Virus record (IMG/VR): IMGVR_UViG_3300010885_002415
Location: 1-34,042 of that record
Source: a virus
Strand: one strand, 5' to 3'
Length of the DNA: 34,042 nt
Made by a program: the position numbers and the translations under genes. The notes below the pieces were generated by a model. The model ran no database searches. It worked only from the letters and a program-made list of their open reading frames with translations, and had not been told where the DNA came from. Below, piece by piece: positions 24,634 to 33,514 of the stretch. Position 1 is the stretch's first letter. Every line of letters begins with the position of its first letter.

Positions 24634-24646
24634 CTAACATTGTTAG
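24634..24646. repeat. 13-bp palindrome CTAACATTGTTAG, site 1
   Basis: Perfect copy between the divergent promoter candidates, 29 bp upstream of the P1 -35. First of 19 dispersed sites. Confidence 0.9.
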
Positions 24647-24675
24647 CCATAGCCCTATTTTTGTTTCCAAAGAAT

Positions 24676-24704
24676 TTGCTTTAGGGGTTATTTTGTGTTA
24701 TAAT
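24676..24704 (+). promoter_or_regulatory. Rightward promoter P1
   Basis: TTGCTT (24676-24681), 17-bp spacer, TATAAT (24699-24704) with an extended -10 TGT directly upstream. Expected start near 24711, giving a leader of about 70 nt to the 156-aa gene. Perfect -10 and ideal spacing indicate a strong host-polymerase promoter. Confidence 0.85.
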
Positions 24705-24753
24705 ATAACCATGCAACAGAGAAGTAAAGGTCAATGTTAGATACCTCTTAAAT

Positions 24754-24766
24754 CTAACAATGTTAG
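24754..24766. repeat. 13-bp palindrome CTAACAATGTTAG, site 2
   Basis: Perfect copy in the leader of the 156-aa gene, ending 2 nt before its AAGGA ribosome-binding site. A partial copy, CAATGTTAG, lies at 24732-24740. Confidence 0.9.
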
Positions 24767-24781
24767 AAAAGGAATTAAATC

Positions 24782-25252
24782 ATGGAAAAGACTTTATTGG
24801 CTCAACGTTTAGAAAATGCTCGTAACGCAATAGTGGCAAACGCTGTAAATACTGGTGAACTCATTGGCTCTTATGCTAGTGCAATGCAAGAATCATTTGA
24901 CATGGTGCTAGAAAATGGTGAGGTTGTTAAGTGGTTTAATCTCAAGGGCAAGGCTAAAGTAGGTGTTAAGGCTGAATATGCTTTATTCGTTGATGCCCTA
25001 AAATCTGCTGACCTCGAGGGTAATAAGTATGTTTACTGGCAGAGAGTTAAGGAAGCAAGTGGTTATCAAACTGCAGGTAATACAGTAAAAGCAAGCCTGA
25101 CTATTGATGCCCGTAACCTTGCTGACCTTAAAACGATTTTGGGTCGCATCTTGAATAACGAATCAGACGATGATGCTGAATTGTCAAATCAAGCAAAATC
25201 ACACCTAACCGAAGCATTCTCAATTCTAGGTGGTGACATTACCAAAATCTAA
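24782..25252 (+). CDS. Orphan 156-aa protein in its own transcription unit; candidate regulator
   Basis: No family recognised. The protein is soluble and mixed alpha/beta: a helical start (MEKTLLAQRLENARNAIVAN), a segment with GEVVKWFNLKGKAKVGVKAE and YVYWQRVKEASGY, and a helical C-terminal half (IDARNLADLKTILGRILNNE). It is transcribed alone from P1 and followed by tandem terminators. A 13-bp palindrome sits just before its RBS and another covers its stop codon (25249-25261). That arrangement suggests autoregulation, so it is a candidate palindrome-binding repressor or initiator. I see no clear helix-turn-helix, so this is inference from layout. Confidence 0.75.
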   Translation: MEKTLLAQRLENARNAIVANAVNTGELIGSYASAMQESFDMVLENGEVVKWFNLKGKAKVGVKAEYALFVDALKSADLEGNKYVYWQRVKEASGYQTAGNTVKASLTIDARNLADLKTILGRILNNESDDDAELSNQAKSHLTEAFSILGGDITKI

Positions 25253-25261
25253 CAATGTTAG
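25249..25261. repeat. 13-bp palindrome CTAACAATGTTAG, site 3
   Basis: Perfect copy; its TAA (25250-25252) is the stop codon of the 156-aa gene. Confidence 0.9.
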
Positions 25262-25270
25262 ATTTGACCG

Positions 25271-31421: not shown

Positions 31422-31425
31422 TCGT

Positions 31426-31668
31426 ATGAGCAAAGTAGTGGTAAGTCTTGGGTGGAATAACGAGTATGTATTAGATGCAGACAAGGCTCTAACATTGTTA
31501 GATTTACTTAAAGATGCAGAGATATACAAGGAGCAATACCAACCGATAGAAAAGGGCGGGACTAGCTACCATATATTTCAGCATGACAAGGATGTATGCA
31601 ACATGCGTGTGCTTAGCAAGAACTTTTATAACCTAGCGAAGTTGGCTGGTAAACCTGAGGAGAAGTGA
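31426..31668 (+). CDS. Hypothetical protein (80 aa)
   Basis: Start at ATG 31426 (MSKVVVSLGWNNEYVLDADK), with TAAGGAGTAATCGT upstream; the longer frame from 31309 lies within the VWA gene. Contains ALTLLDLLKDAEIYKEQY, where LTLLD is a perfect palindrome. Then HIFQHDKDVCNMRVLSKNFY. Possibly an accessory of the MoxR-VWA module. Unknown family. Confidence 0.65.
   Translation: MSKVVVSLGWNNEYVLDADKALTLLDLLKDAEIYKEQYQPIEKGGTSYHIFQHDKDVCNMRVLSKNFYNLAKLAGKPEEK
31489..31501. repeat. 13-bp palindrome CTAACATTGTTAG, site 17
   Basis: Perfect copy inside the 80-aa gene, read as Leu-Thr-Leu-Leu-(Asp). Confidence 0.9.
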
Positions 31669-31669
31669 T

Positions 31670-32536
31670 ATGAGTATTTCGTCATCTGCAGTATTAGTAG
31701 AACTAAACATTAGTGTATGGACTGCTAACAAGTTGGACAAAGGTGCAACCGATAGTGTGCTTGCAAGTAATTCGGCAAGTAAAGATAGCGCACAAGTGCG
31801 TAAGAACCTAATGGCTGGCACAGACAAGCGTAAGAAGATAGCTGACTACGCTGCTAGGGCTAGGCTCTACCACAATCAGACTACATTATCGTGGTCAGAC
31901 AAAGGTGCGAGGCTTCTTCCTACTAGCTTGTTTATGGACTACAAGGCGAACATGAATGTGTATGAGAAGAATATGAACGTAATGATTGCCGACTTCTATA
32001 CAAACTATGCAGACCTGATTGAGTTATCAAAGCATCACATGGGCGACTTGTTTAATCCTTATGACTATCCTGATATTGATGAGTTGCGTAGCAAGTTTGG
32101 ATTCCGATTGGTATTCTCTCCGTTGCCTGAGAGTGGGGACTTCCGCTTGGATATTCCGCAACAAGATATGGTCGAGATGCAAGACAAGTATGAGTTGGCA
32201 TTTAACGACAGGCTAGCAGATGCAATGCGTGAGCCATGGGAGAAGTTGCATAAAGCGTTGAGCCATCTATCTGACAAGCTGACTGACGAAGAGAATCAAC
32301 AGGTGGATGGTAAGAATACTAAGCGTTATCACGATACCCTTATCACTAGCAATCAGGAGTTGTGCAGTCTATTGACCCACTTGAATGTAACCAAAGACCC
32401 ATTGCTAGAACAAGCACGACGGGAGTTGGAACTAACAATGTTAGGTTTAGATATTGAAGATATCAAGGATAGCGCAGACTGCCGTAAAGAAGTGAAGTCT
32501 AAGGTAGATGACATTCTTAACAAGTTTAATTGGTAA
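31670..32536 (+). CDS. MoxR-VWA companion protein, DUF3150-like by context (288 aa)
   Basis: MSISSSAVLVELNISVWTAN through KLDKGATDSVLASNSASKDS, then LYHNQTTLSWSDKGARLLPT, a helical coiled-coil-prone middle and a C-terminus ending VDDILNKFNW. Phage operons with a MoxR ATPase and a VWA protein often carry a DUF3150-type protein. The length and the N-terminal LNISVWTAxK pattern fit my recollection of that family, but it was not checked. RBS GAGGAGAAGTG. One palindrome lies inside (32432, Leu-Thr-Met-Leu-Gly). Confidence 0.6.
   Translation: MSISSSAVLVELNISVWTANKLDKGATDSVLASNSASKDSAQVRKNLMAGTDKRKKIADYAARARLYHNQTTLSWSDKGARLLPTSLFMDYKANMNVYEKNMNVMIADFYTNYADLIELSKHHMGDLFNPYDYPDIDELRSKFGFRLVFSPLPESGDFRLDIPQQDMVEMQDKYELAFNDRLADAMREPWEKLHKALSHLSDKLTDEENQQVDGKNTKRYHDTLITSNQELCSLLTHLNVTKDPLLEQARRELELTMLGLDIEDIKDSADCRKEVKSKVDDILNKFNW
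32432..32444. repeat. 13-bp palindrome CTAACAATGTTAG, site 18
   Basis: Perfect copy inside the 288-aa companion gene, read as Leu-Thr-Met-Leu-(Gly). Confidence 0.9.
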
Positions 32537-32545
32537 GGGGGACTT

Positions 32546-32644
32546 ATGTTTACTGTGTTAGTAACAATACTTGCAATAACAGGGGCGGTGACTTGGGCTT
32601 TTGCCATATATGTTTTGGTTAATATTTATTTAGGAGAGAAGTAA
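32546..32644 (+). CDS. Single-span membrane peptide (32 aa)
   Basis: ATG 32546, 10 nt past the preceding stop, with AAGGGGGACTT upstream, encodes MFTVLVTILAITGAVTWAFA then IYVLVNIYLGEK. One hydrophobic span. Its stop is immediately before the next ATG (TAA-ATG). A second such peptide begins the P2 operon (25935). Function unknown. Confidence 0.65.
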   Translation: MFTVLVTILAITGAVTWAFAIYVLVNIYLGEK

Positions 32645-33505
32645 ATGACATACGACAATGTAAAACTTAAATCAACAGACAGGGGCGATGGGGTCAAGAT
32701 AGATTCAAAGATTGATTCCTTCCTGCAACCCTTAATTGAGAAGCTAGCACTCAAGTATCCACAATGGACATTTGAAGAGGACAACACTAACTATAAGTGG
32801 GACAACATCAACGGCAAAAGCGTTAAGTCAGACCTTACTGCTACATGCTTTAAGGTAATGGATAAGCGTGAGGAGTTGGGTTCTATATATACGCAAACTT
32901 ACCACTCTAGCCATGGGCAACAGTTTTGTGTAGATAACTTCCGAGTGCAACAGTTGCGTGAGCGTGGCAACGGCATGAAAACAATCCACGAAAAGAAAGC
33001 CCTCAAGCATATAGATAAATTCTTTGGTAAGAAGAACTTAGATGAGAAGTTAGCTGATGCAAAAAACCAAGCGCAACAATGTGTCAGTCGTGTATCTAAT
33101 GACTTATCCAGTAAGTTTGATTGGGATTGGAATAGATTTACCGAGTTATCAAAACAATTTATTGTGCAAAAACATTGGGAAGAATTTGTAGGTTATGTAG
33201 ACCAAGCTATCCCTAATGCAAATTTTGATATAAATAAAATGCCCGAAAAGTTTGAGCGTAAGCTAGCTGGTCAGCAAGTTAAAGATGCATTTAATAAAGA
33301 CGAACATTATCTTATATATGTGGATGGTCAAAACTATGCTATATTTCGCAAGAATGAGCCTACTCAAATTAAAGTAAGCGAAGAGTTGCCTGAGTTTATC
33401 CGTAGAAGTGTGGGCATGCTCAAGCTAGTAGATGACAACCAAATACTTAGCGGTATTGGGTGTCGTGTTAACGCAACCACTTATGTTGTGTTGCAACAAA
33501 TCTAA
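32645..33505 (+). CDS. Hypothetical protein (286 aa)
   Basis: MTYDNVKLKSTDRGDGVKID and SKIDSFLQPLIEKLALKYPQ begin a charged protein with several helices (ALKHIDKFFGKKNLDEKLAD, WNRFTELSKQFIVQKHWEEF) and a beta C-terminal part (HYLIYVDGQNYAIFRKNEPT). No family recognised and no catalytic motif visible. RBS TAGGAGAGAAG. Its stop codon lies in palindrome 19. Confidence 0.7.
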   Translation: MTYDNVKLKSTDRGDGVKIDSKIDSFLQPLIEKLALKYPQWTFEEDNTNYKWDNINGKSVKSDLTATCFKVMDKREELGSIYTQTYHSSHGQQFCVDNFRVQQLRERGNGMKTIHEKKALKHIDKFFGKKNLDEKLADAKNQAQQCVSRVSNDLSSKFDWDWNRFTELSKQFIVQKHWEEFVGYVDQAIPNANFDINKMPEKFERKLAGQQVKDAFNKDEHYLIYVDGQNYAIFRKNEPTQIKVSEELPEFIRRSVGMLKLVDDNQILSGIGCRVNATTYVVLQQI

Positions 33506-33514
33506 CATTGTTAG
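33502..33514. repeat. 13-bp palindrome CTAACATTGTTAG, site 19
   Basis: Perfect copy; TAA (33503-33505) is the stop codon of the 286-aa gene and its last bases run into the AGGAG ribosome-binding site of the next gene. Confidence 0.9.

Follow-up and report, generated by a model that had tools for sequence, protein, structure and literature searches.

The early region of the phage studied here carries a dense network of short palindromic sites, which is strongly linked to the first early gene. The product of this gene is the probable reader of the palindromes. The window, the 34,042-nucleotide stretch of DNA that was analysed, is a linear fragment and one whole IMG/VR record (IMGVR_UViG_3300010885_002415). 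It belongs to a large phage group, uncultured and apparently lytic, that seems to come from freshwater-type metagenomes, and each phage of the group has about 10–25 copies of one palindrome across its early genes. Judging from the sequences, it is fairly probable that a homodimer of the first-gene product binds the palindromes, roadblocks RNA polymerase and shuts off the early region, and that it may exclude superinfecting phages.

A palindrome confined to the early region

A first-pass annotation of the window had listed 14 perfect and 5 one-mismatch copies of CTAACA-W-TGTTAG and none in the first 24.6 kb. Our recount agrees at every coordinate, with the earliest match at position 24,634, and adds three copies with two mismatches (25473, 25727 and 25834; Table 1). 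Together, 22 matches with at most two mismatches were found against 1.35 expected, and the maximum in 100 shuffles was 4.

The same phage is represented by a 66,664-bp contig (G001) with 19 sites, all located between 24.6 and 34.8 kb and upstream of the DNA polymerase gene. It adds one site beyond the window (position 34,780), and its remaining 56 kb contain none. No sites occur in the downstream replication genes (DNA polymerase, helicase, primase) or in any structural gene. Since all sites lie within one early region of about 10 kb, the network is specific to this region. The annotation was thus right that the sites cover the whole early region, while the phage-wide regulator network it proposed must be narrowed to these 10 kb; the late genes, whose motif density it had suggested checking, contain no sites. 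All 42 IMG/VR stretches with a paired site fall in the phage group of the window. The sole paired-site match in a genome (L227, from a Tepidiformaceae MAG) consists of a tandem duplication rich in GC and was taken as chance.

The non-coding interval at 25395–25840 contains 17 half-sites per kb, while the late region has 0.28, and such a cluster is strong in only three loci, the window phage (L005), L009 and L032. The 13-mer at 29637–29649 is kept even in relatives of another site class. As it encodes the conserved peptide SNIV and persists across classes, this site is partly a coding relic.

Table 1 Sites, promoters and genes of the early region in the window
Feature	Position	Strand	Remarks
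Perfect site	24634..24646	none	Upstream of P1, centred 71 bp before its start; a divergent leftward promoter would possibly have it at +50
Predicted early promoter P1	24676..24704	+	TTGCTT-N17-TATAAT, TG before −10
Perfect site	24754..24766	none	Centre +49 from P1 start
First early gene, proposed site-binding protein	24782..25252	+	156 aa, type II of new family
Perfect site	25249..25261	none	Overlaps stop codon of first gene
Predicted intrinsic terminator	25270..25293	+	Immediately 3' of first gene
11 isolated half-sites (CTAACA or TGTTAG)	25395..25840	none	Non-coding, between first gene and P2
Perfect site	25409..25421	none	In non-coding stretch
Two-mismatch site	25473..25485	none	
Two-mismatch site	25727..25739	none	
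Predicted early promoter P2	25823..25851	+	TTGCAA-N17-TACAAT, TG before −10
Two-mismatch site	25834..25846	none	Between −35 and −10 of P2
Perfect site	25903..25915	none	Centre +51 from P2 start
One-mismatch site	26354..26366	none	Contains start codon of zinc-finger-like gene at 26360
Perfect site	26727..26739	none	Intragenic
One-mismatch site	27251..27263	none	Close to gene end
Perfect site	27776..27788	none	Stop-codon overlap
One-mismatch site	28302..28314	none	Intragenic; mismatch adjoins centre
Perfect site	28770..28782	none	Gene end, upstream of P3
Predicted early promoter P3	28797..28825	+	TTGCAT-N17-TACAAT
Perfect site	28869..28881	none	Centre +43 from P3 start, leader of ATPase gene
N4 gp24-like AAA ATPase gene	28955..30022	+	Anchor gene for gathering relatives
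One-mismatch site	29237..29249	none	Within ATPase gene
One-mismatch site	29637..29649	none	Within ATPase gene; partly fixed by SNIV
Perfect site	30192..30204	none	Contains start codon of VWA gene (30198–31421)
Perfect site	31195..31207	none	Within VWA gene
Perfect site	31489..31501	none	Intragenic
Perfect site	32432..32444	none	Intragenic
Perfect site	33502..33514	none	Stop-codon overlap

Several other genes of this phage were noted in passing. A 58-aa ORF between the ATPase and VWA genes (30019–30195) matches sigma-70 region 4 in its last half only, the part with the recognition helix. A 203-aa sigma-factor-like protein is encoded at 37018–37629 of G001 (L086:17018–17629) and was seen, among the compared loci, in G001 and L079 only. 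The VWA gene bears the PHROG 1314 label 'HNH endonuclease', and Pfam instead assigns DUF2201 metallopeptidase-like and VWA-like domains (N4 gp25-like). An HslV-family peptidase gene (23435–23866) adjoins an HNH endonuclease gene; the annotation of the cultured phage DSL-LC04 shows this arrangement too.

Sister palindromes in relatives

With the ATPase gene as query, 390 relatives were found in IMG/VR, and a search of 84,980 bacterial and archaeal genomes gave none; ATPase matches in cultured phages reach only ~25% identity. By terminase, the closest cultured phages are DSL-LC04 and the pelagiphages HTVC023P/HTVC027P (53–56% identity). The examined stretches of DSL-LC04 (50 kb) and HTVC023P (40 kb) contain no enriched palindrome. 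Among cultured phages, no close relative was found by DNA match to the window, and the first gene has no match there.

In most relatives, the top repeated dyad is the palindrome. Where a relative has no 13-mer, a sister palindrome mostly takes its place, with a spacer of 2 instead of 1 or an altered half-site. The sister classes are CTAACA-AA-TGTTAG (spacer 2), CTAACA-AT-TGTTAG (G014), ATAACA-W-TGTTAT, GTAACA-NN-TGTTAC (L188) and CTGACA-AA-TGTCAG. Class switches hit many sites simultaneously, and two loci (L012, L015) differ from the 13-mer phages in site class despite ~90% identical ATPases. In L067, L073, L046 and L032, two classes are interleaved along one region; these phages may be midway through a change of specificity.

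Sites lie downstream of early promoters

Of 175 predicted extended −10 early promoters, 154 (88%) have a site downstream, at a median of +51 (IQR 47–57) from the predicted start, compared with 19% for random placement. The three window promoters show the same arrangement (Table 1), and in phages that lack the first gene a promoter-downstream site was present in 1 of 16 cases. The polymerase in an open complex extends to about +20, so that a protein at +51 would leave the promoter exposed and obstruct early elongation instead. The first promoter is also preceded by a site some 70 bp upstream, which perhaps, on weak evidence, serves a divergent promoter as its +50 site.

The remaining sites, which are found at start codons, at stop codons and in gene interiors, are spaced more evenly than random (coefficient of variation about 0.5 vs 0.92; p<0.1 in 43 of 50 loci). 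This is in line with the annotation, which had placed sites at promoters, leaders, gene ends and inside genes, and adds the ~50-bp distance and the even spacing. Conservation of site positions, which it had proposed to look for, was found as well: the placement recurs in relatives.

The centre of the site is oriented unequally in transcribed regions, with A:T at 427:307 and, in spacer-2 phages, AA:TT at 282:63. The 23 sites upstream of P1 show no such lean. A symmetric dimer alone is insufficient to explain a one-sided orientation. It recalls the polarity of stoperators, by analogy, and could alternatively reflect a role of the RNA.

The first early gene tracks the network

In every site class, the first gene after the first site encodes a fast-evolving protein of 155–200 aa that belongs to a single superfamily, and in most relatives sites bracket its promoter and its stop codon. 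The linkage between gene and network, assessed in 83 loci spanning the terminase–ATPase interval, is strong: all 73 loci with the family have at least 7 sites, and all 10 loci without it have at most 3 (Fisher p=4e-13). We considered other nearby gene families as readers, and the next best of 67 gave p=9e-4. Presence of the first gene changes 7 times on the ATPase (backbone) tree, and 6 of 6 independent pairs are concordant. The RHH protein (33727–33939) and the HTH80 protein were rejected as readers, since neither shows co-variation with motif class; the RHH proteins of L068 and G005, for example, are almost identical while the motifs of the two differ.

The two subfamilies of the protein differ in the sites they accompany. 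Type I occurs with spacer 1 in 48 of 50 cases and type II with spacer 2 in 32 of 39 (p=4e-15); under phylogenetic control, with 4–5 concordant and 0 discordant pairs, this link is only suggestive. Subfamily does not strictly determine the spacer, because the window's own protein and those of L007, L009, L036 and L182 are of type II and accompany spacer-1 sites. Motif class changes 6 times on the first-gene tree and 12 times on the ATPase tree (73 loci). On the 33 loci that could be compared for several genes, the edge of the first gene is small, with 4 changes vs 5–6 for others and 4 for the zinc-finger-like gene (24 loci). An earlier label test on 35 loci gave 7 changes on all gene trees but one, which needed 6, and did not set the first gene apart; the larger locus set separated it from the others.

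In L010, L011, L016, L017, L020, L022 and L024, the family is present as a tandem pair, each copy with its own promoter and sites. Loci without the family, among them L060, L048 and L071, encode unrelated proteins at the first-gene position, which are perhaps alternative regulators. A replacement palindrome was not detectable in L060, L048 and other phages lacking the family.

The annotation had implied an undescribed regulator, for which there is now a candidate, the product of 24782–25252. Its family has no match in Pfam, PHROG or PDB sequences, and a fold search that included PDB and BFVD returned none. The proteins are helical. AlphaFold models (pLDDT 80–81, pTM 0.56) matched no known DNA-binding fold; the type I model opens with four confidently modelled helices, continues with a disordered linker, which is acidic in this type, and ends in a helical hairpin at the C-terminus. 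In type II, the invariant Trp86 is preceded by Tyr in TAACA phages, and CTGACA phages have Met, Ile or Val there. This class dependence is a hint that the helix around the Trp may read DNA. The symmetry of the palindrome suggests that the protein is a dimer.

The sites are probably read as DNA

The inner five positions of each half-site are nearly invariant. At the outer position, A replaces C on either arm and T does so rarely. The mismatches A.G (136) and C.U (117) are tolerated there and the U.G wobble is scarce (10), which indicates that bases, not pairs, are under selection. The hairpin of a transcribed palindrome would have −1.1 kcal/mol, or 0 for the ATAACA class, compared with −7.9 for lambda boxB, and 4 of the 14 window sites have a pairing probability of ≤0.02 in their context. 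The weak or absent hairpin and the base-specific mismatches favour reading of the sites as DNA.

These observations weigh against RNA-level antitermination, by which the first-gene product would read the transcribed hairpin and let polymerase pass terminators. Lambda N is the product of a first early gene, acts from a site near +50 and forms cognate protein–site pairs that vary between phages, as among lambda, 21 and P22. The network described here is similar in that the sites lie ~50 bp downstream of early promoters, the protein is encoded by the first early gene with a terminator directly behind it, the centre leans with transcription, and protein and site are paired by class. The +50 position also fits such a positive role. 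However, sites occur every ~500 bp, about 20 per genome, whereas one nut site per operon suffices, and they are base-specific palindromes with a very weak RNA hairpin. N is small and arginine-rich, in contrast to the helical protein of 155–200 aa here. We therefore regard antitermination as unlikely.

A proposed roadblock mechanism

A roadblock that represses the early genes is the likeliest mechanism. The first-gene protein would be made from P1 at once after infection. As it accumulates, the homodimer would bind the sites ~50 bp past each early promoter and every few hundred bp over ~10 kb, and the bound protein would block or dislodge elongating RNA polymerase. The outcome would be autorepression and shut-off of the whole early region, an early-to-middle switch, and a superinfecting phage with the same site class would have its early genes silenced too. 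Specificity (spacer 1 or 2; CTAACA, ATAACA, GTAACA, CTGACA) would shift by swap or divergence of the first gene together with concerted conversion of the sites, resembling heteroimmunity. The sites, their confinement, classes, placement and gene linkage are read directly from the genomes; from them we infer binding, dimerization, roadblock, repression and exclusion.

The network would work most like the stoperators of cluster A mycobacteriophages. Phages such as L5, Bxb1 and TipsytheTRex have more than 20 stoperators of 13 bp at promoters and along transcribed regions; the sites lean one way, and site classes of relatives change in step with the repressor (PMC9283540, PMC6550527). Here, too, ~20 copies of one short site are dispersed per genome. 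The annotation had likened the architecture to stoperators, with an unrelated, palindromic sequence; this likeness is supported, and the architecture is conserved in relatives. The half-sites are fully palindromic and only the centre is asymmetric, whereas the cluster A site is asymmetric. In the window's group, sites occur in the early region only, and their +51 position suggests that bound protein may block elongation. The linked gene is the first early gene, and its product shows no relation to known HTH proteins, while Rep of L5 and Bxb1 is an HTH immunity repressor. With its palindromic site, unrelated protein and lack of lysogeny genes, the network falls outside the cluster A system.

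An immunity repressor of a non-integrating temperate phage would account for the architecture and for the diversification of specificity, both of which resemble cluster A immunity (PMC6550527). This appears improbable, as the gene lies behind the early promoter itself and not behind a distinct maintenance promoter, and no integration or partition genes were found. Tyrosine integrases and serine recombinases were not found in 15 contigs of up to 66.6 kb, nor ParA in 20 contigs, and no prophage, as an ATPase relative or a true paired-site match, was seen in 84,980 genomes. The contigs may not be complete, and lysogeny is best called unlikely. Because these phages seem lytic, the cluster A immunity setting is not directly transferable.

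A protein that serves in genome architecture, replication initiation or partition, and that would coat or compact the genome's early third, would fit the even spacing, and the half-site cluster of the window is iteron-like. It is nevertheless very unlikely, because the sites lock to promoter starts at +51, the cluster is strong in three loci only, and ParA was not found.

That another phage or host protein is the reader, with the first gene merely its tightest-linked target or partner, would suit a first-gene protein without a recognisable DNA-binding fold, but is highly improbable: a host protein leaves the concerted specificity switching among close relatives unexplained, the RHH and HTH proteins of the phages do not change in step with the motif, and no other gene family tracks the network. 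In favour of another reader, an unrelated antitoxin, MtvA of plasmid pPAD8, binds in its operator an 11-bp core, TAACATTGTTA, identical to the core of the phage palindrome (PMC11826091). MtvA differs in being an AbrB/MazE-type protein of a Pseudomonas plasmid without a dispersed network, and the identity is most likely a coincidence.

Implications

The best-known examples of dispersed repressor roadblocks are those of cluster A mycobacteriophages and their relatives. If our explanation is true, the palindromes would add a second case, non-homologous to the first, from an abundant group of uncultured phages, and this mode of control would have evolved at least twice without being bound to lysogeny. 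A more far-reaching proposal, which we put forward only tentatively, is that a large, strictly lytic clade independently evolved a repressor-roadblock network with rapidly switching, immunity-like specificities and a DNA-binding protein of new fold, and may use it for early shut-off and for exclusion of competitors of like specificity, without lysogeny. Relatives with switched half-sites or spacers constitute a natural experiment in which a protein and ~20 sites would have shifted specificity jointly. The outcome includes a named, testable protein family with no known fold.
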